From assembly GCA_017479885.1 (NCBI GenBank), contig JAFVBR010000024.1:1-43967 (forward strand): 43,967 bases of DNA, read 5' to 3'. This stretch comes from Paludibacteraceae bacterium (GTDB taxonomy: Bacteria > Bacteroidota > Bacteroidia > Bacteroidales > Paludibacteraceae). The translations under genes and the position numbers were made by a program. Positions 6,001 to 29,622 of the stretch are shown here, piece after piece (the first letter of the stretch is position 1; each line of letters opens with the position of its first letter). The notes beneath the pieces are model-generated. The model searched no databases. It worked only from the letters and a program-made list of their open reading frames with translations, and was not told where the DNA came from.

Positions 6001-8853
6001 ATAAGCGGTGATATTCAGGATATGCAGGTTTCGTTCTATATGTTGCCAAACTCATATAATCCGCAGACGCAACTATTGGCAGGTGCGGCAACAACAGCCA
6101 ACTATACTTCGGTTGTTGTGGTTGGTTTGCTGAGTGATCCTGATGACATGTCAACATTTATTCCGGTAGATACGCTTGTGTATGACCGTGTAAATCCCAC
6201 GCAGTCAACTCCTGCAACTCCTGAGAACGACTACATGTGGCAGAAGATGACTGTGAACTTTGAGAATGTGAAAGAAACGGATGCACACTTCATTTGCTTT
6301 GTAGGTGATGCCAATATAGCTATGGAGGTATGTGCCGAGAAACTGGCATCGTATTTGGAGACAACATCTTCATGGTACGTATATAACAGATTCTACATTG
6401 ATGACATATCAATAGAAACCAAGTCGGAGTGTATAATTCCTTCCAATGTGAAAGCAAGCAACATTTTGAAAGATGCAGCTATGATAACATGGGAGAGTGA
6501 AGGCAAGGCTGATATTGTTGCGGTATATACGAGTGCGCAACTTACAGAGTCAACACTTGTAGTCCGCGATACGGTTGCCAACGATACACTGGAGATTTTC
6601 GATTTGGAACCATTCACAAATTATTATGTGACTGTGCAGGCAATATGTGCGGAGGATATGGAGTCAGATCCGAGCCAAACTTATGAGTTCCACACGCTTC
6701 GTGTACCGAAGGTGGCAGAGACATTCATGACCAACATCAGGATTCCTGCTGACTGGGAGAGCGGAACCGGTCGTGCAGAAGACGTGTTTGCCGGTACTGC
6801 TGATATTGTCCCGGCGACTACATACGCATGGTATCACGGAACTGCTCTGGACGGACTGGTTTATCCTCACCAGTACATGTACATGTATTCAACCACCACA
6901 TTGCCTACCGATGCTACTCTCGACTCGGCATATCTGGGCAGTACGTACCAGAAGTTCGGTTGGATGATTACTCCGTCAGTAGTACTTGACGATGAGCATG
7001 ACGCATGGCTGACATTTACGGGCTTCATGTCCGGTTACGGCAGTGTAGATGGTAGTCCGAGCAGTTCGACGACAATTTACAGGAAGGCGGACTTGAACGG
7101 CAAGGATGATCAGTTCATGGTTATCGTATCCGACGATAACGGTGAGACATGGAAACGCGAGAACGCCATTATATGGAACAATGAAACAGGTGAAGACAAC
7201 GGCATCCGTGTTGACGGCAAGGATCGTAACCACTGGTACGGCAAGGGCGATTATTCGCTTTCAGACCTTGCAGTTACGAAGGATGAGGCCGTAGCCAATC
7301 CGATACGTGTGGATTTGTCGAAGTACAAAGGCAAAACCATCAAAGTTGCATTCTATGTGGAGAATACGCTTCACAATGCAAGAAACTACATGCGCATCTC
7401 CCACCTTAATCTGAACTACTACGTAGTGGAACAAGGTACTCTGACGAACTGCCAGTATGAGGAGTTTGACGAGTCTCAGACATTGGGCTTTGCCATAGAT
7501 GAAGACAGGATAGCTTCCGGAGCCCAGCATTTCGAGCGTATTGTATATGCTCCTGCTTTGGATGCCGACCTGAGCGAATATACAGGCTCGTTCCTCGACT
7601 CGCTCTATGTGCTTGATGCCGAAGTGCTCTCAGCTCCGACTTACGTGATAAACGCTACCATCTGCGAGGGTGAAGAGTATTCAGACAACAACTTCATTCC
7701 GCGCATGGAATCAGGAACGTACAAGCAGAAAGGAGTATGCACTGAGACAGGTTGCGACAGTATAACGGTTTTGAATCTGACAGTGATACCTCGTCAGTAC
7801 ACCGTGGTGGAAGACACTATCTGCGAGGGTCAGGCATATCAATTCAACGGCAAGGAATACCTGACACGTACTATAACAAGCGACACGCTGACATCTGTAG
7901 TTACGGGTTGTGACAGTATAGTGACATTGTTCCTTGAGGTTGTACCTGCTTTGAAGGACGAACGTACGGTTCAGATATGCTCGAGCAACACGTATTACAT
8001 GAGTGAGAAATATCCGGCTTTGGACCAGTCAGGCCACTACGTTGACACCATTAAGAATGTTGACGGTTGCAACGTGGTAATCGACTTGAATCTGACAGTA
8101 TATGACACATTGTATTCATCATACGAGGTGACCACCTGTGCCGGTACTCCTGTAATTTATGAAGGCCAGACCTTCACAGAGGCGGGCGTATATCCGGTAT
8201 ATCTGAAGTCGGCAGCCGGTTGTGATTCATTGGTAACTCTTACGGTTAATGTTACTCCGGTTTATCTGGATACACTCAATATCCAGATATGCAACGGGGA
8301 GACATATCCGTTCAACGGTTTGGACATCAGTGTCGCCGGAGAGTATAAGGAGACGGTTTCAAGTATAAACGGATGCGACTCCACCACCGTATTGGTTCTT
8401 GATGTACTTGAGAAACAAGAGCATTACGTGGATACGGTTATCAACGAAAGTGATTTGCCCTACTTCTATGGTGATGTAACCTATCCGATCGGAACCGAAC
8501 CCGGTGTATATGAAGATACCATTACGGATGCCGGCGTATGCGGCGGAGTGTTGTATCATAAACTTACTATCATATCAGAGACAGGCATTGACAACCTGAA
8601 GGCAAAGGATTTGAGACTTACGCCAAGTGTGATAAACCGCGATGAAACGGTTGCAGTATCAAGCAAGTTCACAAGTTCCGAGCTCAAGGGCATGCGTATA
8701 GACGTATATGATATGACCGGCAAGCAGGTAATGACAACTACCGAAGTCGGCAATCCTATAGAAATAGACTGCTTCCACGTGAGCGGACTGTACAATGTCC
8801 GTATCACAACGGGTACTCAGCAGGTATATATAGGCCGTGTAGTGGTAAGATAA
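1..8853 (+). CDS. Giant modular T9SS-exported adhesin-like surface protein (5' partial)
   Basis: The reading frame is open from the first base, so the true start lies upstream; at least 2950 residues are visible. The protein is built from alternating modules: a partial fibronectin III-like piece, then jelly-roll domains of the cleaved-adhesin/choice-of-anchor-J type at roughly 220-820, 1110-1680, 2020-2640, 2950-3525, 3820-4420, 4755-5405, 5715-6420 and 6710-7430. Most end in YIDDI or YLDNL and are followed by a fibronectin III-like domain. Five cysteine-pair repeats follow (about 7650-8415), each ending near GCDS. The last 80 or so residues form a T9SS type A sorting domain (VYDMTGKQV, then SGLYNVRI). 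Such proteins are carried across the outer membrane by T9SS and usually act in adhesion or carbohydrate binding. The ligand is unknown. A terminator lies 18 bases after the stop, so the gene is transcribed separately from the next operon. Confidence 0.85.
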   Translation, partial: SSAILTDDQQDNEKYMTNVIKRENNLKQTQYSVSGLEWGTPYYIYVRSVCDREADDGVSLWSSPTEFTTKVPNPMPLPYKEEFDRWGSSSTNGYKLPAQGLENGWQKVSAGNYPYLTTTNYSSPASLYLYNFQGATTALSSRCGYAIAPLLATQDLTDVKVSFFGRAVTAATTAEQAASCYVDTLYIGAMTDPKDSTTFTLLKEVSVPTTTFKEYNVVLDNWAPSYGNYIAFTTAHAWSPRATNPTTGATGTIYNSLYIDDVIFSIYTDSKPLSLETTDVQGDNVSVSWSGRASDGWTIVVATKEINPDTVSATTSGVVLKDTAIASTVFDYKIENLTPQTWYYIYLKPTKGKEWSSISAMTLCLPLTPTKSFMMDFEYLGDSAATAQTKYVPDCWTAYNESNTTTASYIPGIYRYSTTASITATSYCRPGGRKSMHVYTYIPATATATSAGPAVFATPEIKVNDMASLYVSFWYKAQSNTYTFGLGVMKDPDDFSTYTELAVIYPGNTNWNQYEYVLGDLGYKPEMGKYVAWVADLHLDKSTARYAGGYIDDIQMYEQTCKAPQVNISQISDTSAIVMTGLPSSSVITYTLFKDTVVDALVLNDPDSGSVYMQKMVAAGKVAQADTLANGAGQILHDLEESTDYTIALQMLCDEGATSVYVLNTFTTQCAAKPLSYFEKIDFERITIDGKEVNIYNDTTYNSTTATWAGGARPIECWMLGNKAMDPSNKTAGFVPYVVRRTATQTNTTIVPSDWNALRLYSTTTYNGAYAIMPTLDVDDIRNYQVSFKGRANGGTALTKSALTTYAGGIIVGIVSDASDLSTFMALDTLYVQDTAVHKMVVRFDKYKGDADGNMGRQIAFMSEFAKTNVFVIDDITVSEASSGCQIPLHLRANPNVYDAELSWESSADSFYVYIANEVVAYDKWDTYAKWLAVKKTDKESVFVDGLQGSKPYYAYIKAVCQDTAQWALDPLYFKTECPESLMLPYEENFDSYATGGTSHPDCWDVYYNNYNLIDNPTSTIYPYVYSTAHYGTSGNGMYFYYYGTYNTPERRATAATPRIGGKINQTMVSFVYRNSSTTAISSSSDYTGYLIVGFASETSTLDTLLKTFVPIDTIAVKPYNGADAVWHEYVRELSDVSGENMHLVLATYNPWGTSTTYHAGQGGSIYLDNLKVEKIPTCFTPSVESVSNVTFETCDVSVSPAKEKDTKWDLMIVSGDEKDTVMVTDTLTVIPVKGLKNGTTYTVYARTNCGDGDVSAWSAGLDFNTQKLITDSAFYGFENTERTTLIPTSTSDSYVIHPDLSVQNISKAGTYATSYSYIPYNYSNSATITYSRTGEAALRMYNCFSTTATSCWTNAYVKLPQIENAQNKQLSFDMRAGYAGGDTILETNQYYRMAELEIGMIDADATDVSSYETLASFKMSPLYLHEKAINANNRLFDHIVFPLPEKLTVNKKLVLRNIGTEATSYIYLDNLTIEPKKQNVATPKFKSSAVSATTLTLNWDKNGAEKWNVYVVDADAAINFPLDSVAASDIVADKKDVTDTTVTFSGLTPGKKYYAYLQLAGESGIGATSIRRPEIMPLSEKIAVTDTIDFESGLVSLFGPTAAAADSAYLTLPGWYMGNKRYNGRAYQGDVHTYGTYYSGNTRSTTYQYMRYSHNKNTSADKDKNALRLYNGTTTGYNGAYAVMPMIDCDQLDTLQLNFWARPFWGTSVETAPKVGAATSTAPQRPLIVGTVTDPNDISTFEEIQRFTYSDLSLTTSTNLFENEDLWYDEFAISLAGTEGKYIAFLNDTIGYWFIDDISFGPATCFTPAGLKSSDVTNKSAVLSWKTFVDSKSRIQVATSGTYASNAIAIDTLVAEGVNSITVSGLEGSTRYVWHVRSECGGELGNSKWTSDGEFDTGCPAVGSGTKYSFEAAEGLVIRKGATSATYSIPNCWRADGTYTTKSSTYIPYVVSSSGTTWYSHASDALSGTETNLNGMYFYNSQSYLGTSTYYRSWAVTPEISGDIQDMQVSFYMLPNSYNPQTQLLAGAATTANYTSVVVVGLLSDPDDMSTFIPVDTLVYDRVNPTQSTPATPENDYMWQKMTVNFENVKETDAHFICFVGDANIAMEVCAEKLASYLETTSSWYVYNRFYIDDISIETKSECIIPSNVKASNILKDAAMITWESEGKADIVAVYTSAQLTESTLVVRDTVANDTLEIFDLEPFTNYYVTVQAICAEDMESDPSQTYEFHTLRVPKVAETFMTNIRIPADWESGTGRAEDVFAGTADIVPATTYAWYHGTALDGLVYPHQYMYMYSTTTLPTDATLDSAYLGSTYQKFGWMITPSVVLDDEHDAWLTFTGFMSGYGSVDGSPSSSTTIYRKADLNGKDDQFMVIVSDDNGETWKRENAIIWNNETGEDNGIRVDGKDRNHWYGKGDYSLSDLAVTKDEAVANPIRVDLSKYKGKTIKVAFYVENTLHNARNYMRISHLNLNYYVVEQGTLTNCQYEEFDESQTLGFAIDEDRIASGAQHFERIVYAPALDADLSEYTGSFLDSLYVLDAEVLSAPTYVINATICEGEEYSDNNFIPRMESGTYKQKGVCTETGCDSITVLNLTVIPRQYTVVEDTICEGQAYQFNGKEYLTRTITSDTLTSVVTGCDSIVTLFLEVVPALKDERTVQICSSNTYYMSEKYPALDQSGHYVDTIKNVDGCNVVIDLNLTVYDTLYSSYEVTTCAGTPVIYEGQTFTEAGVYPVYLKSAAGCDSLVTLTVNVTPVYLDTLNIQICNGETYPFNGLDISVAGEYKETVSSINGCDSTTVLVLDVLEKQEHYVDTVINESDLPYFYGDVTYPIGTEPGVYEDTITDAGVCGGVLYHKLTIISETGIDNLKAKDLRLTPSVINRDETVAVSSKFTSSELKGMRIDVYDMTGKQVMTTTEVGNPIEIDCFHVSGLYNVRITTGTQQVYIGRVVVR

Positions 8854-8871
8854 AACCACTGATACATGAGA

Positions 8872-8905
8872 AGAAAAGTCCGGCACTGTCGGACTTTTCT
8901 TTTTG
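8872..8905 (+). terminator. Rho-independent terminator of the giant adhesin gene
   Basis: A perfect 11-bp stem, AGAAAAGTCCG pairing with CGGACTTTTCT around a 7-nt loop, is followed directly by a run of T. It lies 18 bases after the stop codon at 8853. Confidence 0.9.
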
Positions 8906-8955
8906 TCGGAAAATACGATTATTAAGTAATAAAAAATGAAATTATACTTCAAAGT

Positions 8956-8987
8956 ATTGCACAATTAAAAAAAAAAGCGTAATTTTG
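8956..8987 (+). promoter_or_regulatory. Bacteroidota promoter of the barrel/adhesin/protease operon
   Basis: A TAATTTTG element at 8980-8987 fits the -7 consensus TAnnTTTG. An ATTG at 8956-8959 lies 20 bases before it, the expected position of the -33 TTTG box. Transcription should start near 8993, about 25 bases before the ATG at 9019. Confidence 0.75.
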
Positions 8988-9018
8988 CGAGCAATTTGTA
9001 AAATGGGTTGGTTTAGGC

Positions 9019-9987
9019 ATGAAGATGCAAAAACTTATATTGTCAGTATTCTGTTCTGTCTTGATTGAAGGTGCATGCGCGCAGGTGCAAAATTTTGCAT
9101 TTGCGGGTGCGGATGTCGGTTATGCAGCGCTATTGGACAATAAGAAGGCTGCACAACCTGCCTTTGGAGCAGGAGCCTCGATAAATATAGGTTATGAGTT
9201 GCAGTATCGCAAGTTGTTGTTTGATGTAGGGCTGACCGGTCGGTTCGCCCGGTCGGTAAATACTATTTCGGATGATTATCTGTATCTCCGCATGCTCGAT
9301 ACCGAAGGAGATGAATTCAATTATAACTGCCACTTTTTCAATACTGTAAACAAGCTGAATAGCGCATATATCTCTGTGCCGGTGATGATAGGTTTTCAAA
9401 CAGGCAAAATGTATATGCTTGCCGGAGCGAAGATGTTGTTGAGCATTGCCGGAGTATCGGAAGTATCGACTTATTTGACGACAACTGCCAGTTATGACCG
9501 CTACATCGGCGAATTGCAAAACATGCCTGACCATTTTGTATTTGAAGACAGGTACATGGAGGGCAATGCGAACTCTCTTTTGTTTGCGCCCCAACTAAAT
9601 GTATGTGCCGAGATAGGCTGGCGTCTGGAACATTCGATTGTCGGTGTTACGGGATATGATGTTCCTAAGAAGAAGATTCAGTACAGGATAGGTCTGTTTG
9701 CAGAGTACGGCGTACTTGACCAGCATAAGCACAATGCTACCCAATCGAGGCTTTCGTATTATGACAACGGCGAGGGTTTGCAATACGACATAAACCACAT
9801 ATACGGTTCGGTTGAAGCGAACGATCTGAAATTGGCAAACCTGTTTGTAGGTATCCGTTTCACCGTGCTTTTCAAGATACCCGAGACCAAAGATTGTGTG
9901 CTCTGTAAAGATAACGCCGGTTTCAAGTCCGTCAAGGGCGGAGGAAAGATAAATGCGGAGTTGCATCCTCATTTGAGCAAGAAATAA
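9019..9987 (+). CDS. Outer-membrane beta-barrel protein, 322 aa
   Basis: The N-terminus is a signal peptide (MKMQKLILSVFCSVLIEGACA, cleaved before QVQN). The rest alternates short amphipathic strands rich in Gly and aromatic residues, as in small outer-membrane barrels of the porin-like/PorT type. The order of segments matches the barrel part of the next gene: ISVPVMIGF and YMLAGAK here against IQIP-like and YFLAGPK there, and YRIGLFAEYG against YRLGVYADYG. The two are therefore likely paralogs. It is the first gene after the promoter at 8980. The C-terminal 40 residues carry a Cys pair (CVLC) and a basic tail not typical of barrels. The role may be to seat or anchor the exported adhesins of the same operon, which is inference. 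ATG 9025 is an alternative start. Confidence 0.75.
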   Translation: MKMQKLILSVFCSVLIEGACAQVQNFAFAGADVGYAALLDNKKAAQPAFGAGASINIGYELQYRKLLFDVGLTGRFARSVNTISDDYLYLRMLDTEGDEFNYNCHFFNTVNKLNSAYISVPVMIGFQTGKMYMLAGAKMLLSIAGVSEVSTYLTTTASYDRYIGELQNMPDHFVFEDRYMEGNANSLLFAPQLNVCAEIGWRLEHSIVGVTGYDVPKKKIQYRIGLFAEYGVLDQHKHNATQSRLSYYDNGEGLQYDINHIYGSVEANDLKLANLFVGIRFTVLFKIPETKDCVLCKDNAGFKSVKGGGKINAELHPHLSKK

Positions 9988-10023
9988 ATTGTCAATAATA
10001 GAACAATAGAATATAGATAACGT

Positions 10024-12249
10024 ATGAACAATACAAGTAAGATACTGACTATATGTTTGGCATTGATGTTTTCAATGCTGGTATGCCCGGTAATGACTAT
10101 TCCTGCCTCTGCTGCAGTCTCGCAAACTCAAGCTCAGAAGCAGAATGCCCAGCGCCAGAAGGAGGCGGAGAAGAAACGCAAGGCTCAGGAAAAGCAGAAA
10201 CAGCAACGGCTGAAGGAGCAGGCAAAACGCCAGAAAGAGCGCGAGAAGGCAGAGGCACAACGCCAGGACAACAAGGCCCGTCAAACGGCAGAGAATGCTA
10301 AAACCAAGCCGTCTGCCGGCAACAATGCCAAGTCGGATGCACGTTCGCAATCAATTATAGGCGCAACTGATGCTTACGAACGCAGAGTGGCGGAAATAGA
10401 AGCTCAGAACAGAAAGATAATAGCCCGTTCAAGACGCGATCTGACTCATGCGATAGGAGTATGGGGTATGATGGGATATTCGGCAATGTTCCAGAATATC
10501 AAAGAAGCCGATGACGGTACGGGCTTCTCAGCAAAGACTTTAGGCGGATTCGGAGGCGGTGCCGGACTCGGGTACCAGTTGCGATACAACAATTTCCTGT
10601 TTAATACGGGAGTGGAGTTTGAGATGTATAACTCGGATACCAAATTGTACTCGCCTTCAGTATCTGACGACTTGCTGGCACGCACATATTCTGTTGCTGA
10701 GTATCCTACGATGAGTTATGACTACCGATTCAGAATGAATGACAAATGGAGCGGTGGTTTTGTGCAGATTCCGGTGCTTTTTGGCGGCGAGTGGGGCAGA
10801 TGGTATTTTCTTGCCGGTCCGAAAGTGGGTATAGGAGTGCTCGGAAAATCGGAGGTGTCGTCGGTTCTGTCAACCGATTTGTACGATGTGGAGTTGCCTG
10901 ACAAGATTTTTGACATAGGTTCGCATAGTGTAGTCACCGACAGAGATATGGGTGTCAATGCAGGAACACTGAAATATAATGTGAACTTGGGTTTGGCTGC
11001 GGAAGCAGGCATATATCTTGACGAGTGGCTTCAGCCCAAGCCGAAGAAAGCCAAAGGGCGTGGCAGACAAAAGCAAGAGGATAATTTCTTATCGCACTTG
11101 CGCTACCGTCTCGGTGTCTATGCGGACTATGGTCTTCTTAGCGTACAGAGCGGAAAGAATCTGGCTGACGGTGCAATAGATATACCGCCGGTATTGCCCG
11201 GTAATCCGGACCCGCTTGTTTACCCTGTTAACTCCGCTCTTTCAACCACTTATGCTGCCGGTGCGCGCGTAAATCCGTTTCTTGTAGGAGTGAAACTGGC
11301 AATATTCTACCAGTTCCCCAAGAAACAGGAGAAACTGATTCCCATACCGGCTCAGCCGATGCCTTTGTTCAGAGCGAAGGTGGTTGATGCTGAGACAGGG
11401 AAACCTGTTCAAGGTGTGATGCTCTCCATGTATAACACTGTGAAAGACAAGCAGAGCAGCAAAACGTCCAATAAAGACGGTGTAGTGATTCAACGCATGC
11501 CCAAAGCAGAATATCAGTTGTGGGCACTTCGGGCGGGATACGAACCGAGTGATACGCTCAGCTTGATGCTTTCCAAAGATATGGCAGATACTCTGCTTAT
11601 CAGTATAAAGGCTGAAGAAGTGCCGACAATATATTATCTTACAGCATACGTAAGAGACGCAGAAACCAATAATCCGTTAGCTGTGCAGGTAGCAATAGCG
11701 GACGGCACAACCCAGGTGTATTCAGGCGAGACAACTGAAGACGGATTGCTTGCAACCGACCTTCTGCCGGGTACGTATTACGCTCATCTGTCAACAGCAG
11801 GCTTCATGCCTTTGGATGATACGTTACGATTTGAGCAAGACACACTCAGCATCTATATGCAACGCATAAAAGAAGGCAAGAAAGTGGTACTGCACAATCT
11901 GTTCTTCGCTACCAACAAAACTCAGATACTGCCCGAGTCGGAAGAGGCTTTGGAAGAACTGGCTCAGTTCCTGACAGACAATCCGACAGTGGAGATACTT
12001 ATCACAGGTCATACCGATGCCGTAGGTTCGGATGCTGCCAACCAGCGTTTGTCGGAAGGTCGTGCCAAGGCTGTGTGCGACGATTTGATTATGCGCGGTG
12101 TAAGTGCCGAGCGTATAGCATCGGAAGGCAAGGGCGAGAGTGAACCGATAGCAACCAACGATACAGAAGAGGGACGTGCTCTCAACCGTCGTGTAGAATT
12201 TACGATAACAGCTACAGGAGGTGAAGATATACGCCAGATATCAGAATGA
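10024..12249 (+). CDS. Outer-membrane barrel fused to carboxypeptidase-regulatory-like and OmpA domains, 741 aa
   Basis: The order is: signal peptide (about 1-31, ending ASA); a Lys/Glu/Gln/Arg-rich coiled-coil-like stretch (about 35-96); a barrel-like region (about 137-435) resembling the previous gene product; two CarboxypepD_reg-like beta-sandwiches (about 447-525 and 537-615, each with DAETGKP- or DAETNNP-type turns); and an OmpA peptidoglycan-binding domain (about 622-735). The OmpA domain shows GHTDAVGSDAANQRLSEGRA and a final NRRVEF, the usual peptidoglycan contact segments. It should link the outer membrane to the cell wall. The gene follows the small barrel gene by 36 bases, and its stop overlaps the next start by four bases (ATGA), so it is probably translationally coupled to the adhesin downstream. 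The coiled-coil region could span periplasm or interact with partners. Confidence 0.85.
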   Translation: MNNTSKILTICLALMFSMLVCPVMTIPASAAVSQTQAQKQNAQRQKEAEKKRKAQEKQKQQRLKEQAKRQKEREKAEAQRQDNKARQTAENAKTKPSAGNNAKSDARSQSIIGATDAYERRVAEIEAQNRKIIARSRRDLTHAIGVWGMMGYSAMFQNIKEADDGTGFSAKTLGGFGGGAGLGYQLRYNNFLFNTGVEFEMYNSDTKLYSPSVSDDLLARTYSVAEYPTMSYDYRFRMNDKWSGGFVQIPVLFGGEWGRWYFLAGPKVGIGVLGKSEVSSVLSTDLYDVELPDKIFDIGSHSVVTDRDMGVNAGTLKYNVNLGLAAEAGIYLDEWLQPKPKKAKGRGRQKQEDNFLSHLRYRLGVYADYGLLSVQSGKNLADGAIDIPPVLPGNPDPLVYPVNSALSTTYAAGARVNPFLVGVKLAIFYQFPKKQEKLIPIPAQPMPLFRAKVVDAETGKPVQGVMLSMYNTVKDKQSSKTSNKDGVVIQRMPKAEYQLWALRAGYEPSDTLSLMLSKDMADTLLISIKAEEVPTIYYLTAYVRDAETNNPLAVQVAIADGTTQVYSGETTEDGLLATDLLPGTYYAHLSTAGFMPLDDTLRFEQDTLSIYMQRIKEGKKVVLHNLFFATNKTQILPESEEALEELAQFLTDNPTVEILITGHTDAVGSDAANQRLSEGRAKAVCDDLIMRGVSAERIASEGKGESEPIATNDTEEGRALNRRVEFTITATGGEDIRQISE

Positions 12250-15200
12250 AGAAAAGGCTTATCTACATATTGATAGCATTATTGCCGTTGATGCTTTGCA
12301 ATGCCCAGTTGGCTGACCGCATATCAATTCCTTATGAGTGCGATTTCGAAGACCAGTCGGAAACGGACAAATGGGTACTGAACTACAATACGCCCAATGC
12401 GACCGACCAATGGGTGATAGGCAGTGCAGCCCGCAACGGAGGAAAACACGGCCTGTATATTTCCGCATATTCGAAGTTGGATGATACCATTCCCGGTTAC
12501 AATTCGGCATTGTTCGGTGCGCGTCCGAACAAGGTTATGGCGTACAGAAAGTTCCGTGTTCCTCATGGTGCGGCTTCGTATGATGTATCATTTGACTGGC
12601 GCATGGTAGGTAACCCGATTAGTCAGCAGCAGGCTGCGTTTTATGTATATTGTGGTCCTGCAATACAGCTTACTTCGGGCAATTATCCGTATTTGAATTA
12701 CGTGAGTGAAACATCGGGTACGGGCTTGCCGGCTCGAATGCAATTTTCGGCTTTTGAGGTTGACGGAGTTTCCCGAACTTATTGGAATTACAGCAATGGT
12801 TCGAAAACATGGAAATATGCTCATCAAGCCAAGCAAGCTCCTTTGAGAGTTACCGAGTCTGCGTCTGATGAGGAATTTGTGATATTGTTTATTTGGGTTA
12901 ACAATACGATGTCAATAGGTCAGACCAATGTGGGCATTTGTATTGACAATGTGCAGATAACTTCGGCAAATGTTTCCCGTCCTGACAATTTCAGGATATC
13001 AACGGATTGTTCAGAGGAGGCGTTTCATCTTGAGTGGGAGAGTACGGCAGATTATCTTGAGCTGCAATACAGAAATGTGAATGAAGATGACTGGGCTGCG
13101 TCAATCAGTCCTATTTCACCGCAGGGGGCTTATTACCTTCACATGCGTAACGAAGGCTCCTACAATTTGCGTATAAGGGGTATAAAAGAACATGACGAGT
13201 TGAAATCTGATACAAGTGCGTGGGCAATGCAGAATGACGTGGTGTACTGGTGTCCGGATGCACATTGCATCAATTATGTTGATTTGGAAAGTGATGATGT
13301 TGTGTGCAGATACGGGTATTATCAAACAGAGAGTAGTTTTGGCATTCCGCCCTCAGACAATACTTTGACGATTGGCTATATCCCTGATGGCAGAGAGCAT
13401 GTAGGTCAGGAAGACAACTGGGATCTGTATGCGCGTCATCGCGTAATTTGGGAGCAGTTGACTGACCCCAGGACTGAAGGTTCGGTAGATGCCAACGGTA
13501 ATCCTGTTGACCCATTGCAGTGTCTTCCTGACGGGACGATGGCTACGGTAAGGTTGGGTAATCCTGAGCCGCTTTATGGTCATGAGGATATAACATATAA
13601 ATTCACGGTTGACCCCGACTATGGTTTGCTTGTGATGAGTTATGCTCCTGTGTGGAGTCCTTCTACACATGCTGACATGGAAGGTTTTGAGGTGCAGGTA
13701 ATGGACCAGAATATGCATATAATCAGCCAGAACACCATTTGCGGTAATCCGCAGTTCTCGTATGATGAGTCACTTGCCGATGTATGGAACACTTCCGGTG
13801 ACGGAAGATACAGATGGCGTGACTGGTCGGCATTCGGTTTTGACCTTACAGCCTACAAGGGCAGAGTAGTGTACATCCGTATTCACAATTGGGATTGTGC
13901 TGCGGGTGGTCACTCGGGTTATCTTTACTATTATATGACATGCGTCAGTGCGGAGCTGAAGACGGATAATTGCGGTGAGGAGAGTAAGATAAATGTGGAT
14001 GCCCCTGCAGGATTCTCCTACGAGTGGTTTGATGAGACAGGCAAGCTGCTCGGCCAAGAACGTCAGTTGAAAGATGTAGAGTCGGGGCATCACAACTACA
14101 CCTGTAAGATGTGTATGACAGACCCAATGACAGGTGACCCGTTGAATTGTTGTATAGAACTCCGCACTTCGCTTGAGCCGCGTTATCCGGTTCCTCTATA
14201 TAATGCACAGATGGTTCCTGAGCAATGCACCAATATAGTGAATTTTACGGATTTAAGTCATGTGATTACCCGCTATCAGGATACAGACGGTACAATAATT
14301 GAGAATGATGCTCCGGGAGAGCATATCGACCAGTCGGAGATATGGGTTTATCGTGCAAGCGACGGCAAGCAGGTGATGCATACGGTAGAGCCTTCATTTC
14401 AATACGAGGCACCTGAGGAAGGTGAGATTCTCAACATACGCCATCGCGCCTTGTTCGGAGGCGGAATGTGTGACAGTATAATGGAAACGACGCTTGAGAT
14501 ACCATCGATTCTTACGCCCCCCGAGGTGGTTGATACAACTATTTGTTCATCGCAAACGCCATTCCGGTTTGACAACAAGGGCTTTTCTGAATCGGTTGAA
14601 TATGTGTCGGAAAAGGTGAATGTAGCCGGATGCGACAGTATGACAACACTTCGTCTGACAGTCATTCCTACATCGTATGAGACATATTATGATACTATAT
14701 GCTCGTCCGACCTGCCTTATCATCTGAACGGATTCTCTTACCTTTATACAGGAGTATCAACACAGAGTCTTACCAGTGCTTCTGATTGCGACAGCGTGCT
14801 GACTCTCTCGCTAAAAGTAATTGAACGCATGGAACTTAGCGTGGATGAACTGCCGAGAGTGATGTGTTCGGACGACGGCATTTTGTTGATAGACTGGGAA
14901 AATCTGCCCAATAAAAGGGACAGCATCGGCAGATTTGACAGCGTTGTGGTGCATTTCAGCGACAATGCGTTGAGTACAGGCTATTTCAAAGACCTTGTAA
15001 TATATGACAATGACATAGATGAAGTAGAGATAGAGTATTCCAACGCTCTCCCTGCCGGCGATTATTTTGTAACACTGATGTTCTATCAGCCTCATGTATG
15101 TGAGCCGCAGACCTTTATCCTTCCTGTTGAAATGCGCTATGGCGGCATAATAGAGCAGAAATGGAACAATGTGCTGATGTTGCTGAACGAGCATTACAAC

Positions 15201-15614
15201 CATGGTTTCACATTTACTGAGTATCAATGGTATAAAGACGGCGTGGAAATAGAAGGTGCGACATTGCCATATCTGTATCAGGATTTGGATTTCGACTCGG
15301 AATATACGGTAAGATTAACCAGATCTGACGGTGTAGTGGCATTCGCCTGCCCGCTTCAGCCTACCGACAGAACTGACAAGCAGATTACCACATTCCCCAC
15401 ATACGTATCTGAAAATTCGTCAGTCAGTGTGCGTGCTATGAAAACTTCAACCCTTTCAATTTATACTCTTACAGGAAACGTGTACAGCATCCAGTCGCTT
15501 AGCGCAGGTGAAAATATCGTCCGTATGCCATCTGCCAGCGGCATGTATGTATTAAGGATATCTTCTGACGACGGTTCAGACACAATGTCGCAACCGCTGA
15601 TGGTGGACAAATAA
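12246..15614 (+). CDS. T9SS-exported multidomain adhesin-like protein, 1122 aa
   Basis: A signal peptide (MKKRLIYILIALLPLMLCNA) precedes a jelly-roll domain (about 22-245) and a fibronectin III-like domain (about 250-330). A second beta-domain follows, with the motif DCAAGGHSGYLYYY at about 550-563. A degenerate PKD-like domain (about 655-755), two cysteine-pair repeats (about 762-858, ending GCDS and DCDS), an Ig-like segment with YQWYKDG (about 1020), and a T9SS type A sorting tail (about 1045-1122, with LSIYTLTGN and SGMYVLRI) complete it. The same architecture recurs in the next gene, so the two are paralogs by duplication. The start ATG overlaps the OmpA-fusion stop. It is predicted to be surface-displayed; the ligand is unknown. 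Confidence 0.85.
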   Translation: MKKRLIYILIALLPLMLCNAQLADRISIPYECDFEDQSETDKWVLNYNTPNATDQWVIGSAARNGGKHGLYISAYSKLDDTIPGYNSALFGARPNKVMAYRKFRVPHGAASYDVSFDWRMVGNPISQQQAAFYVYCGPAIQLTSGNYPYLNYVSETSGTGLPARMQFSAFEVDGVSRTYWNYSNGSKTWKYAHQAKQAPLRVTESASDEEFVILFIWVNNTMSIGQTNVGICIDNVQITSANVSRPDNFRISTDCSEEAFHLEWESTADYLELQYRNVNEDDWAASISPISPQGAYYLHMRNEGSYNLRIRGIKEHDELKSDTSAWAMQNDVVYWCPDAHCINYVDLESDDVVCRYGYYQTESSFGIPPSDNTLTIGYIPDGREHVGQEDNWDLYARHRVIWEQLTDPRTEGSVDANGNPVDPLQCLPDGTMATVRLGNPEPLYGHEDITYKFTVDPDYGLLVMSYAPVWSPSTHADMEGFEVQVMDQNMHIISQNTICGNPQFSYDESLADVWNTSGDGRYRWRDWSAFGFDLTAYKGRVVYIRIHNWDCAAGGHSGYLYYYMTCVSAELKTDNCGEESKINVDAPAGFSYEWFDETGKLLGQERQLKDVESGHHNYTCKMCMTDPMTGDPLNCCIELRTSLEPRYPVPLYNAQMVPEQCTNIVNFTDLSHVITRYQDTDGTIIENDAPGEHIDQSEIWVYRASDGKQVMHTVEPSFQYEAPEEGEILNIRHRALFGGGMCDSIMETTLEIPSILTPPEVVDTTICSSQTPFRFDNKGFSESVEYVSEKVNVAGCDSMTTLRLTVIPTSYETYYDTICSSDLPYHLNGFSYLYTGVSTQSLTSASDCDSVLTLSLKVIERMELSVDELPRVMCSDDGILLIDWENLPNKRDSIGRFDSVVVHFSDNALSTGYFKDLVIYDNDIDEVEIEYSNALPAGDYFVTLMFYQPHVCEPQTFILPVEMRYGGIIEQKWNNVLMLLNEHYNHGFTFTEYQWYKDGVEIEGATLPYLYQDLDFDSEYTVRLTRSDGVVAFACPLQPTDRTDKQITTFPTYVSENSSVSVRAMKTSTLSIYTLTGNVYSIQSLSAGENIVRMPSASGMYVLRISSDDGSDTMSQPLMVDK

Positions 15615-15647
15615 TATTATAGTCAATACAGAAACCCCATTTAGGAT

Positions 15648-18600
15648 ATGAAAACAAAGCAAAATATTCTGTTAATTGCTCTCCTTGCAGCTGCTTGTAC
15701 GCTGTCAGCTCAAGTGACTTACTATTCGTGCGATTTTGAGACGGAAAGTCAAAATCAGGAATGGACTCTTTCGGCCGGTCAGCTTGCTGCCGATATTCCG
15801 CACAAATGGACTATAGATACAGCAGAGAACAATACATACGGCGGCAGCAAAGCGATGTACGTTTCGCTTGACAACGGCTCGACAGCTTCTTATAGAAATG
15901 TTTCTTCGTATGTTATAGCATATACAACAATCTATCTTGAGGCAGGCGACTACGATTTCTCGTTTGATTGGAAGGCATTGGGTTATACACTGACTGATGT
16001 GGAAGGACTATATGTAGGTTGGGCTCCTGAAACAGATTTTCTGGGCAGGACAATCAATCTTAATTCCAATACGAGTACTACCATAGGTACTACTATCAAC
16101 AACTATATTCTGAATCTTGACAATCCTGATGATAACTCAACAAAGACGCAGTTCAGAGGAAGGTCTGAGTGGCAGACCAAACTCTCGACTCTAAGCTCTG
16201 ACGGTGAGCCTCGCAGGTTGTTTTTCCTTTGGTTGAGCAGCCAGTCGGCAGCAATAAATCCCGGCGCATGTATCGACAACATAGAGATAGTGCGTAAAGG
16301 AGCGTGTCCTGCTCCTACCGAGGTGTATATTAATACAGACGAGGAGATGAATATTGTCACTCTGACATGGAGCGGTGATGCCCCTATGTATGAAGTGAGG
16401 GTGTTCAACCATACGACCGGGCGTTGGACTACCCGTACAGTGTCTGATACGACAACTATATTCAATAGCCTAAGCGAAGGCAAGTGTGATTTTTATTTAC
16501 GCAGTTTATGTGACGGCAATCTGCGAAGCGTCCCATATTCCAATTCGCCCTTTATTTATTATCCTGCGAACCATTGTATAGATTATCTGACTTTGACTGA
16601 TGAAAATTGTTCTTTTACCTCAGGTTTCCAGCAAACAACTGATACTGAGCGTCCCACATGGGAATGGTCGGCGGGAAAGATAGATTTGGGTGCTGACAAT
16701 GTGCAGTCGCAGCATGTCAGGATTGACTCACATGACGAACGAGACCCCTACACAGGCGGCATGTTGTTGAAAGTACCTGCCAATGAACTCGCATCTGTCA
16801 AATTAGGAAAGGAAGGTACAGCCGGTTCTCACCATACCGCTTCACGTGTAAAATACAAGTATCACGTTGATGCTGAAAAATCACCTGTTCTTTTGATGCG
16901 ATATGCCGTAGTACTTCAGGAACCCGGTCATGACATCGGCAAGTCAAACAGCCATCAGGACCCTCGGTTTACACTAAAAGTGTTGGATTCCAGCGGACGT
17001 TCGATTGGCTCGTGCGCAGAAGCTGACTTTACGTCATCAGGAGTTGATGAGGCTAACGGTTGGTATATGTTCCAACCTGAAACCGGCTCCAGTTTGCAAA
17101 CAACAAAAATAGTATGGAAAGACTGGACGACAGTAGGTGTTAACCTTTCCGAATATGACGGACAGGACTTGACCGTGCAACTGACTTCATACGATTGTGC
17201 TCAGGGCGGTCACTTCGGTTATGCATATTTTACTCTCGGTTGCTCTAACGGTAGTCTGTCAGGTATGTCGTGTGGTCAGGAGAACACCGAGTTCGTTGCT
17301 CCTGACGGATTTAGATACCGTTGGTTCAAGGCTTCTGCTGAGAATCAGGTTCATAACCCGCTTTTATACAGGGAATCGTATATAGAAAGCCGCGAGAGAG
17401 TATTCTCTGTTGATGTCAACGATACTCTAAGATATGGTGTTGACCTTATGTTTGAAGGTGATACAACTTGTTATTTTACTCTTTATGCGTCGTCTTTACC
17501 CTATTTCCCGGTTGCTTCAATGGAATATGAGTATAAACCGTCTGGCTGCAAGAATATATACCAATTCACTAATACCAGTCACATAAAAGAATACAACAAA
17601 ATATCAAAGACAGAGGTACATACCAACAATAAGGTTGACTATGTGGAATGGGATTTTGGTGACGGTACGACATCACTTATGGCAAACCCCGAGCATGAGT
17701 ATCCTCAAGAGGGCGGTTTGTTCACAGTCACTCTTCGTGCTTATTTGGGCGAGTGTGAACCTGATGAACAGCAATTCTATGTGTTGGTACCCAAAGTAGG
17801 GACACAGATAGATACGCTTCATGTCAATGCTTGCCGTGCAGACGGTTATGCCTATAGAGATACCACATTCACGGAATCAACTGTTTATACGGATTCGCTG
17901 GTATCTGTAATCGGTTGCGACAGTATAACAGTGCTCGATGTAAACATACTTGATACTCTTTTTACAGTAGTAGATACAATGATCATGAATACAGAGACAT
18001 TTATGTTCAATGGTAATGAGTTGTCGAAACAAGGTACATATACGGCACAGCTGAAGAGTGAATATGGTTGTGATTCAATCGTAACTTTGCATCTTTTTGT
18101 TCACGATGTTCTCAAAGTTGATATAGATTCAGTATTTACTATTTGTGCCGATGACGGAGTGCTGGATATGCCATATAGCTTTATCTCAGGTTATTCATCA
18201 ACATATTCGCTTAAGTTCAGTAGTCCTGAGATACCTGATATATTGAACGAGAGAACCGAATTAGGAGTGCTGTCAAGTGATCTTCCCACTTATATTACTC
18301 CCAATGAATACGGCTTTATTCTTGAATTCTACGACAGCATTTCAGGCGACTTGTATTTGCCGCTGAAACTCATTGTTGAATATCCTTCGTCGGTTATCAC
18401 TCAGCGATGGAATGATTTGCTTGCAGTAAGAAACAGCGATTATAATGGCGGATATGAATTCTGCAATTATCAGTGGTATAAAAACGGTGTACCTATTGAT
18501 GGCGAACAAGATTTTTATCTGTATGTTCCGGAAGGATTGGATTTGGATGCAGAGTATTCAGCAATGGTAACCCGTGCAACAGACAGTGTATCGTTGTTCA

Positions 18601-18851
18601 TCTGCCCGATAGAACTTGAAGATTATTCCGTTGTCAGAACAATTCCTACGCTGGTAGAGAAGCGTCAACCGATAACAATGAGAAACATCAGCGGAAGGGC
18701 AGCGTGGATATCTTTCAGGGGGGTAACTATTGATACTGTTTATTTTGCAGACAATGATGTGATATTAGCTCCAGGAAACGAGGGGTGGTACATATTGAAT
18801 GTGATTGAAGATGGAGGTACGAGTCGTTCGTACAAGGTTAAAGTGGAATAA
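15648..18851 (+). CDS. T9SS-exported PKD-containing adhesin-like protein, 1067 aa
   Basis: A signal peptide (MKTKQNILLIALLAAACTLSA) is followed by a jelly-roll (about 20-215), a fibronectin III-like domain (about 220-300), and a second beta-domain with DCAQGGHFGYAYF at about 517. A canonical PKD domain (about 638-718, WDFGDGTT), two cysteine-pair repeats (about 722-822), an Ig-like segment with YQWYKNG, and a C-terminal sorting-like domain (about 990-1067, with EGWYILNV) follow. The second repeat has lost its first cysteine (DTMIMNTE where ICxGE is usual). It is paralogous to the preceding gene and lies 33 bases after it. It is probably displayed on the surface through T9SS. The sorting tail is less typical than its neighbour's. 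Confidence 0.83.
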   Translation: MKTKQNILLIALLAAACTLSAQVTYYSCDFETESQNQEWTLSAGQLAADIPHKWTIDTAENNTYGGSKAMYVSLDNGSTASYRNVSSYVIAYTTIYLEAGDYDFSFDWKALGYTLTDVEGLYVGWAPETDFLGRTINLNSNTSTTIGTTINNYILNLDNPDDNSTKTQFRGRSEWQTKLSTLSSDGEPRRLFFLWLSSQSAAINPGACIDNIEIVRKGACPAPTEVYINTDEEMNIVTLTWSGDAPMYEVRVFNHTTGRWTTRTVSDTTTIFNSLSEGKCDFYLRSLCDGNLRSVPYSNSPFIYYPANHCIDYLTLTDENCSFTSGFQQTTDTERPTWEWSAGKIDLGADNVQSQHVRIDSHDERDPYTGGMLLKVPANELASVKLGKEGTAGSHHTASRVKYKYHVDAEKSPVLLMRYAVVLQEPGHDIGKSNSHQDPRFTLKVLDSSGRSIGSCAEADFTSSGVDEANGWYMFQPETGSSLQTTKIVWKDWTTVGVNLSEYDGQDLTVQLTSYDCAQGGHFGYAYFTLGCSNGSLSGMSCGQENTEFVAPDGFRYRWFKASAENQVHNPLLYRESYIESRERVFSVDVNDTLRYGVDLMFEGDTTCYFTLYASSLPYFPVASMEYEYKPSGCKNIYQFTNTSHIKEYNKISKTEVHTNNKVDYVEWDFGDGTTSLMANPEHEYPQEGGLFTVTLRAYLGECEPDEQQFYVLVPKVGTQIDTLHVNACRADGYAYRDTTFTESTVYTDSLVSVIGCDSITVLDVNILDTLFTVVDTMIMNTETFMFNGNELSKQGTYTAQLKSEYGCDSIVTLHLFVHDVLKVDIDSVFTICADDGVLDMPYSFISGYSSTYSLKFSSPEIPDILNERTELGVLSSDLPTYITPNEYGFILEFYDSISGDLYLPLKLIVEYPSSVITQRWNDLLAVRNSDYNGGYEFCNYQWYKNGVPIDGEQDFYLYVPEGLDLDAEYSAMVTRATDSVSLFICPIELEDYSVVRTIPTLVEKRQPITMRNISGRAAWISFRGVTIDTVYFADNDVILAPGNEGWYILNVIEDGGTSRSYKVKVE

Positions 18852-18862
18852 TTTGGATATAT

Positions 18863-20761
18863 ATGAATTATTCTATAGCAAATCGTATCTTGATAGTTTT
18901 TTTGCTGCTGCCGATATCGCTATCGGCAGCAATGCGTACTAATAGTGATGCAATAAAGATAGCTTCCTTGCATACTAAAAGTATCACTTCCATGCATCGC
19001 ATGCTTCCTGCAGAGACCAATGTCAGGGTGGCGGCACGGTCTGATTCGTGGATTGCCGTGAATACAGGTAATGGTTTCGTTATTGTAGGGGCAGATGACA
19101 GACTGCCCGAAGTGCTCGGGTGGAGTGATAACGGTGAGTTAGTGCCTGATTCTATCAACGACAATCTGCGGTATTGGCTCAGTTGTTATGATGAGGAGTG
19201 GCATCGGTTTTCATACGGTGAGACAGAAGCATCGGCAGATGGTGCAACGGACCGGGTTGAAATGTCTGCTTTGAGGCTGCCCGAAGAGGTATTGCCGCTT
19301 TGTCAAACGCAGTGGAACCAAGGCAACCCGTTCAACCAAAAATGTCCGGAATACAAATCGGGAACACGTTCTGCAACGGGTTGTGTCGCGACTGCCATGG
19401 CGCAAGTGATGGCACGCTACAAATACCCGTCAATCGGCGTTGGCTCCAACTCCTACAACTGGGCGCGTGCTGCAAATGACACAATCCCTTTGTATGCACG
19501 TTTTGACTCCGTACCCTACAATTGGGAACTAATACTCGGTAAGTTGACATCTGCCAACTATGATTCCGTTTGTGACATGTTGTCTATGCTGATGTATCAT
19601 TGCGGCGTGTCGGTCAATATGAAATACGGCTCAAGCAGCAGTGCCAACACAACGACTGCAGCCCGCTCGTTAGTTACATACTTCGGTTATGACCGCAGCA
19701 TACAGAACATTCAGTGCAATGTATTGCCGGAGGATAGTATAGGCAACATTCTTCATGCCGAACTGGCAGCAGGCCGACCGGTGATAATAGCCGGTACCTC
19801 GGAGCAGAATACCCGCCATGCTTTTATTGCCGATGGCTACAACTCGTCAGGCTATTACCATATCAACTGGGGCTGGGGAGGCAACTCGGACGGTTATTAT
19901 TTGATGTCAGCGCTAACCCCGTCAGGTCAGCAAGGTGTGGGCGGAGGAGGAAAGACATACGGAAAGAACATTACTTTCATTGTCGGCATACAGCCCTCAG
20001 CTGACAATCTCCTGCCTGCGTCTCACCTCGGTATAGACAGTATAAAAGTTGACGAATATGCATATAGTAATGGAAAAGCATATTTGTGGGGATATCTTGA
20101 TTTCTCTCCCCAGATATCTGTCAACATGATTCGTGTGCAGAATTTCGGGCTTTATAATTTTGCAGGTGAATATGGTTTGGCATTGATGAGTCATCATGCC
20201 GACACCCTGCTTGACATACTGGACAGCAGGAGTCTGACTCTTAAAAGCGGGTATTTCCGGACCGGCACAAACAATAACTTGCGTGAGGTGTTTTCCTTCA
20301 AGGCAAGTGCCGTAGATACGGGTATTTACCGCCTTGCTCATGTTTACCGTGACACCAGCATGACAGATTGGCATATTTCCTATGCGCGTTATTCGCCCTC
20401 GTTTATATATATGTCGGTTCGCTCAGATTCAGTATTGTTGTCCTATAATGATCCTTCCCCTGCTCCCAATCCACATGATACTTCAATAGTTGTTACTCCG
20501 ACGACACTTGAAAAACAAAGACTGAGTTCTGCCGTTCTATATCCTGCCTGCATCAGTCAGGGCGGAACAATTACTATAGATATAGTCGGAACTACAGAGG
20601 CGGCAGACATCGAAATATTCAATATCGAGGGATTGTTATGCAGAAAATATAGCAGGGTGTATATGCCTTTTGAGTTTTCTGCTCCGGAAGAATCAGGTAT
20701 GTATGTCGTCCGTTTGTTTTGTCGGAATCAGGCGGCTGAAGGCAAGTTTATCGTGCAGTAA
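18863..20761 (+). CDS. C10-family cysteine protease (streptopain/interpain type) with T9SS tail, 632 aa
   Basis: A signal peptide (about 1-22) precedes an inhibitory propeptide of the streptopain type (about 23-125, with VIVGADDRLPEVLGWS). The peptidase C10 domain spans about 140-390. The catalytic Cys is Cys174 in ATGCVATAMAQ, and the catalytic His is His319 in RHAFIADGY, followed by YYHINWGWGG. The Cys-His spacing of 145 is close to that of SpeB. A linker and a T9SS type A tail (about 555-632, IEIFNIEGLLC, SGMYVVRL) follow. The enzyme should be secreted as a zymogen and cleave proteins at or beyond the cell surface. It starts 11 bases after the adhesin gene, as the last gene of the operon, so it may process the adhesins or host proteins; which is not known. 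Confidence 0.92.
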   Translation: MNYSIANRILIVFLLLPISLSAAMRTNSDAIKIASLHTKSITSMHRMLPAETNVRVAARSDSWIAVNTGNGFVIVGADDRLPEVLGWSDNGELVPDSINDNLRYWLSCYDEEWHRFSYGETEASADGATDRVEMSALRLPEEVLPLCQTQWNQGNPFNQKCPEYKSGTRSATGCVATAMAQVMARYKYPSIGVGSNSYNWARAANDTIPLYARFDSVPYNWELILGKLTSANYDSVCDMLSMLMYHCGVSVNMKYGSSSSANTTTAARSLVTYFGYDRSIQNIQCNVLPEDSIGNILHAELAAGRPVIIAGTSEQNTRHAFIADGYNSSGYYHINWGWGGNSDGYYLMSALTPSGQQGVGGGGKTYGKNITFIVGIQPSADNLLPASHLGIDSIKVDEYAYSNGKAYLWGYLDFSPQISVNMIRVQNFGLYNFAGEYGLALMSHHADTLLDILDSRSLTLKSGYFRTGTNNNLREVFSFKASAVDTGIYRLAHVYRDTSMTDWHISYARYSPSFIYMSVRSDSVLLSYNDPSPAPNPHDTSIVVTPTTLEKQRLSSAVLYPACISQGGTITIDIVGTTEAADIEIFNIEGLLCRKYSRVYMPFEFSAPEESGMYVVRLFCRNQAAEGKFIVQ

Positions 20762-20794: not shown

Positions 20795-20826
20795 TTTGCG
20801 TAATTGCAATATGTTTTGTAACTTTG
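20795..20826 (+). promoter_or_regulatory. Consensus Bacteroidota promoter of the polysaccharide export pair
   Basis: TTTG at 20795-20798 and TAACTTTG at 20819-20826 are separated by exactly 20 bases, an ideal -33/-7 arrangement. Transcription should begin near 20832, which excludes the in-frame TTG at 20824 as the start and points to ATG 20845. Confidence 0.88.
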
Positions 20827-20844
20827 CGGACTAATCTGAAGAAT

Positions 20845-21663
20845 ATGAAGAACCAATATATATTATTTGTTATAGCCGTAATATTGTTGATGTCATCGTG
20901 TATTGCACAGCGAAAGATGACGTATTTCAATAAATTGGATAGTGCAGCCGCCGATTCTGTCAATCAGAAATATACCCCGGCAGCGGAACCTGTTATCAAG
21001 GTTGCCGACAAACTGATTATTACAGTCAATGCCATTGATCCTGAGGCAGTGCTTCCATTCAGCCTTCTGGCAATAAGCAGTGTCCGCCCTGCTTCCGATG
21101 AGGCATCCCTTACTGCCAAATATCAGTACTATACTGTTGATACAGACGGAAATATTGATTATCCGCTTTTGGGGAAAATTCATCTTGCAGGGCTTACCCG
21201 CAAAGAGGCAATTGCTTTGCTTGAAGAGAAAATAAGTGCCTCAGTCAATAATCCGCAGGTTACACTCAATTTTATCAATTATTCGGTTTCTGTTCTCGGC
21301 GAGGTCAATCATCCGGGACGGTTTGAAGTTCCTGCCGAACGTACTTCCGTGCTTGATGCTCTTGCTCTGGCAGGTGATATGACTGTATATGGGAAGCGTA
21401 ACAGCGTACTCCTGACCCGCGAAAACAACGGCAAACTGGAGTTCGTAAGGCTGAACCTGAACTCTCCGGACGTATTTACATCACCGTATTTCTATCTCCA
21501 GCAGAACGATGTGCTGTATGTTGAACCTAACAATGCACGTGCCGTTTCATCGCAAAACCTGCCTCTCTATCTGAGCATGGTGACAACACTGGCTTCAATG
21601 GCGACAGTTATAGTGTCGGTAGTGAATACGACTAAGGGTGGTGGCTCATCTTCTAAAGAGTAA
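20845..21663 (+). CDS. Wza-like polysaccharide export lipoprotein, 272 aa
   Basis: The start chosen is ATG 20845, because the longer in-frame start lies inside the promoter. A lipoprotein signal peptide ends in LLMSSC, so Cys19 should be lipidated. A Poly_export (SLBB-neighbouring) domain follows (about 45-130: KLIITVNAIDPE, then VDTDGNIDYPLLGKIHLAGL), and then an SLBB domain (about 135-215: YSVSVLGEVNHPGRFEV). A hydrophobic stretch near the C-terminus (YLSMVTTLASMATVIVSVV) may form the outer-membrane helix. This family forms the outer-membrane channel for capsule or exopolysaccharide. It is followed after five bases by its usual partner, the Wzc-like kinase. Confidence 0.9.
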   Translation: MKNQYILFVIAVILLMSSCIAQRKMTYFNKLDSAAADSVNQKYTPAAEPVIKVADKLIITVNAIDPEAVLPFSLLAISSVRPASDEASLTAKYQYYTVDTDGNIDYPLLGKIHLAGLTRKEAIALLEEKISASVNNPQVTLNFINYSVSVLGEVNHPGRFEVPAERTSVLDALALAGDMTVYGKRNSVLLTRENNGKLEFVRLNLNSPDVFTSPYFYLQQNDVLYVEPNNARAVSSQNLPLYLSMVTTLASMATVIVSVVNTTKGGGSSSKE

Positions 21664-21668
21664 ATATT

Positions 21669-26102: not shown

Positions 26103-26176
26103 ATGCTTTTTATGGAAAGTGAGAAAAAAAATACACCAAGTGTCATTTTTTATACATTGATTCCGTGTTTTTGTGC

Positions 26177-26216
26177 TACTTTTGCACATTGAAAGTTGTG
26201 TCTATACACAATCTTT
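26177..26216 (+). promoter_or_regulatory. susC promoter and 5' leader hairpin
   Basis: TACTTTTG at 26177-26184 matches the -7 consensus. An ATTG at 26156-26159 is 17 bases upstream, slightly close for a -33 box. The expected transcript start, near 26190, coincides with a hairpin at 26192-26216: AAAG-TTGTGT, loop CTAT, ACACAA-T-CTTT. The leader to the ATG is about 58 bases. A short ACACcaaGTGT palindrome lies between the divergent promoters at 26133-26143. Confidence 0.6.
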
Positions 26217-26248
26217 GCCTGACCAAACAAAAAATATTAAAAATACAC

Positions 26249-29581: not shown

Positions 29582-29622
29582 AAACAGCAGGATACAGAAC
29601 ATACAAAAAAACAGTAACTAAT

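Follow-up and report, generated by a model that had tools for sequence, protein, structure and literature searches.

Positions 9019-20761 of the window (the whole stretch of DNA analysed, a 43,967-nucleotide contig of a Paludibacteraceae bacterium) hold an operon that, at slightly better than even odds (about 0.55), encodes two T9SS adhesin carriers from a second family distinct from PorP/SprF, along with the adhesins belonging to them, the carriers ending in exchangeable anchors for a track or for the cell wall. The best clue to the mechanism is the cysteine-pair tail of the smaller of the two barrels. The genome (2.8 Mb, 50 contigs) belongs to a Paludibacteraceae-like gut lineage.

Layout of the operon and its neighbourhood

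The giant gene, the operon and the elements at their borders are as follows.

1..8853, + strand: giant T9SS adhesin with fn3 and GCDS repeats; type A CTD (31.8 bits); 5' end missing
8866..8906, + strand: predicted terminator hairpin 3' of the giant gene (19-bp stem and T run, -23.5 kcal/mol)
8957..8987, + strand: promoter-like TTG-N20-TAATTTTG, a pattern match ahead of the small barrel gene
9019..9987, + strand: small barrel, 322 aa, homologous to the large barrel; candidate adhesin carrier
9895..9906, + strand: cysteine pair C293-V-L-C296 in the C-tail of the small barrel
10024..12249, + strand: large barrel with carboxypeptidase-regulatory-like and OmpA domains, 741 aa, candidate wall-anchored carrier
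11902..12189, + strand: OmpA peptidoglycan-binding-type domain, residues 627-722 of the large barrel (E=1.8e-22)
12246..15614, + strand: adhesin 1, 1122 aa, type A CTD (NCBIfam, 29.7 bits, over the cut-off)
15648..18851, + strand: adhesin 2, 1067 aa, with a PKD domain; CTD-like end without an NCBIfam score
18863..20761, + strand: peptidase C10 with Spi-type prodomain, 632 aa (C10 E=5e-59)
20796..20826, + strand: promoter-like site of the next (wza/wzc-like) unit, a pattern match that closes the operon

The five ORFs of the operon are all on the + strand and are separated by gaps of 36, -4, 33 and 11 bp, the negative gap being an ATGA in which the stop of the large barrel gene overlaps the start of adhesin 1. 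The pattern TTG-N18..24-TAnnTTTG, which we take to be the Bacteroidota-type promoter, matches the + strand of the whole window only at 8957-8987 and 20796-20826, i.e. at the two borders of the operon; in the 12-kb region 0.67 matches are expected by chance and one was seen inside (at 8957), the second lying at the region's end. A first-pass annotation of this DNA had described a five-gene operon with one promoter, tight spacing and a four-base overlap, and the ORFs, gaps and border patterns point to the same predicted unit. Its placing of the operon directly after a giant adhesin gene also holds: that gene ends at 8853 (it is 5'-incomplete because the window is one whole contig) and is kept upstream among relatives. 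The hairpin at 8866-8906, which was not reported by a stock terminator scan, is a predicted terminator that would set the operon apart from the giant gene as a transcription unit of its own.

Right after the operon, wza-like and wzc-like polysaccharide export genes (20824-23987) follow under their own predicted promoter. Further downstream a SusC/SusD-like pair and then a weak pectate-lyase-like protein (26165-33040) form a probable pectin or glycan uptake locus, and two ORFs on the - strand, of 1773 aa (36507-41828) and 338 aa (42105-43121), gave no Pfam match at E<=0.01.

Thirteen distinct loci contain the small barrel, the large barrel and the adhesin ORFs in this order, with a large same-strand ORF upstream. 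Similarity to the giant protein was found in all 11 relatives with enough upstream sequence (69 to 1465 bits; the weak matches may rest on repeats). The conserved set consists of the giant protein, the small barrel, the large barrel and two successive adhesins, and the protease is therefore accessory. It had been proposed that the adhesins are processed as well as displayed, with the C10 protease trimming them. The mere 11 bp that separate adhesin 2 from the C10 gene, with no promoter in them, and the same gene order at locus L305 are in line with such a role, but a C10 gene lies 3' of the second adhesin in just two of 12 genomes (that of the window and G833, with L305), and in three of the 12 (G425, G838 and G840) a C10 match is absent while the rest of the set is there. 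Trimming by the protease is on these counts highly improbable, and the processing part of the earlier proposal is not supported.

Two barrels of one family beside adhesins mostly of type A

The small barrel and the barrel of the 741-aa protein share, by sequence comparison, one domain and belong to one family (hhalign probability 100%, E=4e-66; blastp 26% over 296 columns). The small barrel has a sub-threshold match to OMP_b-brl_2 (E=0.037), and a PDB profile search gave no match at E<=1. Membership of PorP_SprF was weighed first and dropped: neither the window barrels nor eight relatives match PF11751 or TIGR03519, and PF11751 has one match per genome, located elsewhere. Nor do the window barrels and their relatives match DUF6089 or NF052316, the PorG models; a separate PorG is encoded (117.8 bits, under the cut-off of 130). 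The hhalign probabilities were 5.5% to PorP and 4% to PorG, each from a 2-row profile, so that a distant kinship to either may still exist. The first-pass annotation had already set the barrels apart from PorP/SprF, and on this point the domain searches and the hhalign value agree with it.

The large barrel combines a carboxypeptidase-regulatory-like domain (CarboxypepD_reg, 37 bits) with an OmpA domain (80 bits), the combination that marks a PorE-type wall anchor, and would thus be predicted to bind the wall; the PorE model NF052230 itself is matched in part only (90.9 of 600 bits). Residues D665 and R680 of the OmpA domain are invariant in all 24 rows of alignment A3. In ten of 36 large barrels the carboxypeptidase-regulatory-like domain carries a conserved lone cysteine (residue 541 in L083), which the window copy does not have. 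In PorE-PorP-PG1035 and in PorE-like static adhesin operons (PMC9143113, PMC12618676), too, a carboxypeptidase-regulatory-like and OmpA part is tied to an adhesin barrel, suggesting a wall-anchored complex; unlike in those operons, barrel and OmpA are here joined in one polypeptide and the barrel comes from another family.

The family was sampled from 80 stretches, mostly top-ranked profile matches and a few hand-picked for pairs of small and large barrels, plus 77 named loci. Collapsing at 90% identity reduced 192 barrels to 156, and complete ones only were counted (112 small, 36 OmpA-fused); as profiles A1 and A2 included the tail columns, a slight bias toward cysteine tails is possible in this set. 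The family was detected in 96 of 150 genomes of the window's own taxonomic family with a 7-row profile, and the small barrel in nine of 295 genomes of the order with a single-sequence search. Titled records with related loci are mostly of Paludibacteraceae or Bacteroidales bacteria from rumen and other gut samples, with a few Prevotellaceae.

These little-studied barrels usually have an adhesin gene for a neighbour. A same-strand CTD or GCDS-repeat protein directly adjoins 30 of the 36 OmpA-fused barrels and 55 of the 112 small ones, as compared with 14 of 549 control ORFs. Outside the metG locus, 64 of 82 small barrels have a T9SS adhesin neighbour when a sister barrel is allowed between (18 do not), and the small barrels of the syntenic metG-disA locus have none (0/30). 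In the window genome a barrel lies right downstream, within 1.5 kb, at five of the 30 CTD loci examined. One of its barrels, L184 (G000:C18:41792-42706), ends in CRC and comes right after a CTD protein with a 795-aa frame. The question put by the first-pass annotation, whether the barrels usually occur without adhesins, is thereby answered in the negative, and with the giant gene inside the conserved neighbourhood the counts argue for its proposal of a separate adhesin display set built on non-PorP/SprF barrels.

The pairing extends beyond the window's family, where a search of the phylum, scoring no more than 5 candidates in each genome, found homologous barrels in at least 16 of 395 genomes, 13 of those 16 in one Flavobacterium-like genus (probably Flavobacterium itself, judging from GldK cysteines at 285 and 343). 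Sixteen of 18 such barrels follow a CTD ORF, 16 of 17 of these ORFs are of type A, and three of the barrels carry OmpA. Distances between barrels and distances between their CTDs are correlated (0.646 over 55 pairs; within-genome swaps gave a mean of 0.434, and none of 1000 reached 0.646); with near-identical orthologues kept in, and given that linkage alone would also produce a correlation, this is evidence of inheritance as a unit only.

Adhesins 1 and 2 are paralogues (24.9% over 1128 columns, E=8e-76). Among the products of the region, the giant protein and adhesin 1 exceed the cut-off for a TIGR04183-type signal and the C10 protease stays under it (19.0 bits); since NCBIfam did not report adhesin 2, its T9SS signal rests on resemblance. 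An in-house CTD profile was built on seven seed C-termini, including those of adhesin 2, the giant protein, adhesin 1, the C10 protease and L031, and is consequently circular for them; the independent check is a scan with the type A model. This model matched 44 of 50 barrel-adjacent adhesin C-termini at E<=0.1, and type B (TIGR04131) was absent among the 16 families listed for those 50.

According to the accessible sections of PMC12618676, CTDs of type A are exported via PorV. As PorV is encoded as well (in four of four genomes), the adhesins may not need the barrels for export. The type A/PorV route and the system described here thus have TIGR04183-type signals and PorV in common, and differ in that the route as described has no dedicated barrel. 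It is conceivable, then, that PorV exports the adhesins and that the barrels hold them afterwards, the cysteine pair contacting a partner other than PorK or forming an intramolecular disulfide. The prevalence of type A signals beside the barrels suits this explanation, as does the OmpA fusion, which is an anchor and not a part of translocation. On the other hand, one-to-one pairing and a barrel start that overlaps the adhesin stop (a 4-base overlap common in the pairs) are the pattern of dedicated carriers, and the pair occupies the same place, in the same spacing class, as in the tail that PorG has in this genus. We consider docking after export somewhat unlikely.

The cysteine-pair tail and the putative track components

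The first-pass annotation, whose idea of display finds support in these comparisons, had missed both the type A signals and the tail of the small barrel. Of the 112 small barrels, 100 have C-x(1,2)-C within their final 45 residues, directly behind the last strand, compared with 20 of 824 other ORFs and seven of 316 ORFs with an exported-like N terminus; in the fused barrels it was found nowhere after residue 25 (0/36). Within the last 80 residues 102 small barrels have the pair, as CxxC in 61 and CxC in 41. In 71 barrels cysteine makes up 0.47% of the residues before the last strand (90/19,234) and 8.7% of those after it (137/1,572); the script that placed the strand ends misplaced a few of them and scored the pair in 66 of the 71, with three more recognized by eye.

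Among the 13 operon orthologues the pair is kept in four (the window, L226, L236 and L246), so that the tail is not essential in the operon's clade. In the other nine (L242, L083, L030, L248, L239, L245, L233, L234 and L250) a KSYIYD-like tail replaces it; the tail's RGG(N/T)Q stretch is still conserved there. The lone cysteine of the large barrel was rejected as a substitute for the lost pair, as L236 and L246 have both. On the tree, tail type requires six changes (minimum in shuffled sets, 35), with a support of 0.009 for the node that unites the small barrels of the operon. None of the 18 homologous barrels beyond the family has tail cysteines; the association of barrel with adhesin therefore predates the cysteine tail, in keeping with an anchor that was added to it.

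The pair recalls SprF and PorG, whose C-tail cysteines were reported in 2025, in the accessible portion of PMC12635249, to form disulfide bonds with GldK Cys343 that tie these outer-membrane proteins to the moving track; the PorG cysteines are described there as varying in number and spacing. PorG, PorP, PorK, PorV and a GldJ-like protein are all encoded here. Cys328 of PorK in the window genome aligns with GldK Cys343, and all ten PorK/GldK sequences aligned have the cysteine. In the window's genus PorG ends in FEFAKQKAVCRRCQ and FEFGRQKKGCIRCDYAK (CRRC in the window genome, CIRC in G245), close to the FELPEPRQCVICRD-type tails of the barrels. PorG (DUF6089, NF052316) is thus similar to the small barrel in being an outer-membrane barrel with a short periplasmic tail and a cysteine pair, which is CxxC in both PorG proteins here; it differs as a single-copy T9SS component located beside uppS/bamA without an adhesin partner, and in profile similarity, as given above.

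The GldJ-like protein scores 337 bits with GldJ and 237 with GldK, under the GldJ cut-off of 458. At E<=1e-40, 147 of the family's 150 genomes have a match to it, the weakest of these matches perhaps being indistinguishable from PorK. Being nearly universal, GldJ gives no contrast by which its presence could be compared with that of cysteine-tailed barrels. All 33 metG-disA barrels have the cysteine pair, and the GldJ-like gene lies three to four genes away in 28 of them versus one of 79 other small barrels. At L027:6276-7874 (G000:C43) and in its relatives, the gene of the GldJ-like lipoprotein, folP, disA, the cysteine-tailed barrel and metG follow in conserved order, in a gut lineage that is not annotated as gliding.

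Could the tail cysteines instead be structural or bind a metal in a knuckle-like CxxC, with no link to a track, and the barrels be porin-like proteins that are merely co-regulated with the adhesins? CxxC is common in metal sites. The varying spacing of the pair would also fit, together with its loss in most operon orthologues and its absence beyond the family. However, each tail has a single pair and is mostly bare and short, without a second pair of ligands, and the OmpA-fused sisters have none; co-regulation, moreover, does not explain an adjacency found in both Paludibacteraceae-like and Flavobacterium-like genomes. We judge this explanation to be quite improbable.

In the open-access library searched, which does not extend to most subscription journals, we found no description of cysteine-tailed barrels other than SprF and PorG.

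A possible carrier mechanism and its meaning

Returning to the reading of the barrels as adhesin carriers, each barrel would bind the C-terminal signal of the neighbouring adhesin, exit the translocon with it and hold it at the surface. By general rule the C-terminus of such barrels is periplasmic; with the OmpA domain at the same place, both forms thus carry a periplasmic anchor, which, as the end after the last strand, would be exchangeable. In the small barrel the C-x-x-C tail would be attacked by PorK Cys328 (GldK Cys343), and the resulting disulfide would tie the adhesin to the moving PorK/GldJ track, whereas the OmpA domain of the large barrel would hold the partner adhesin to the peptidoglycan. 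With a track tail on the small barrel and OmpA on the large one, the operon would therefore combine a carrier that moves with one that stays in place. Gene order, domains, adjacency, the conserved tail and the presence of PorG, PorP, PorV, PorK and a GldJ-like protein are observed; the carrier role, the assignment of barrels to adhesins, the disulfide and the movement are what we infer.

A close parallel is SprB-SprF of Flavobacterium johnsoniae gliding. As far as the accessible parts of PMC12635249 and PMC12618676 go, the two systems share an adhesin gene that adjoins the gene of a dedicated-looking barrel, a cysteine pair in the barrel's C-tail, the GldK/PorK cysteine and a GldJ-like protein. 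They differ in that the barrel here is not PorP/SprF, the signals are of type A and not of type B, the tails are CxxC as well as CxC, and gliding is not known for this lineage. SprF-like carriers, in the accessible text of PMC12618676, decide whether an adhesin moves or stays static, and PorE-like OmpA partners mark the static ones. By analogy, the small and large barrels look like the moving and static solutions of such carriers in another barrel family.

A bolder version, which we put forward as doubtful but possible, is that uncultured gut Paludibacteraceae own a moving track: GldJ-like protein and PorK would form it, several non-SprF barrels per genome would carry type A adhesins on it by their tail disulfides, and the OmpA-fused sisters would hold other adhesins still. 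If so, this family would have gained its track-hook separately from SprF, and dedicated carriers would exist for type A substrates, contrary to the rule that T9SS signals of this type have none. The OmpA-fused sisters would be the built-in static counterpart. Should a third barrel family, to all appearance unrelated to the other two, indeed have the same tail, in many copies per genome beside giant adhesins, the hook would be a general anchoring module. It would also raise the question whether gut Bacteroidales glide or move adhesins. Taken for the operon itself, the evidence suggests that a second means of attaching adhesins, to a moving track or to the cell wall, has evolved separately.
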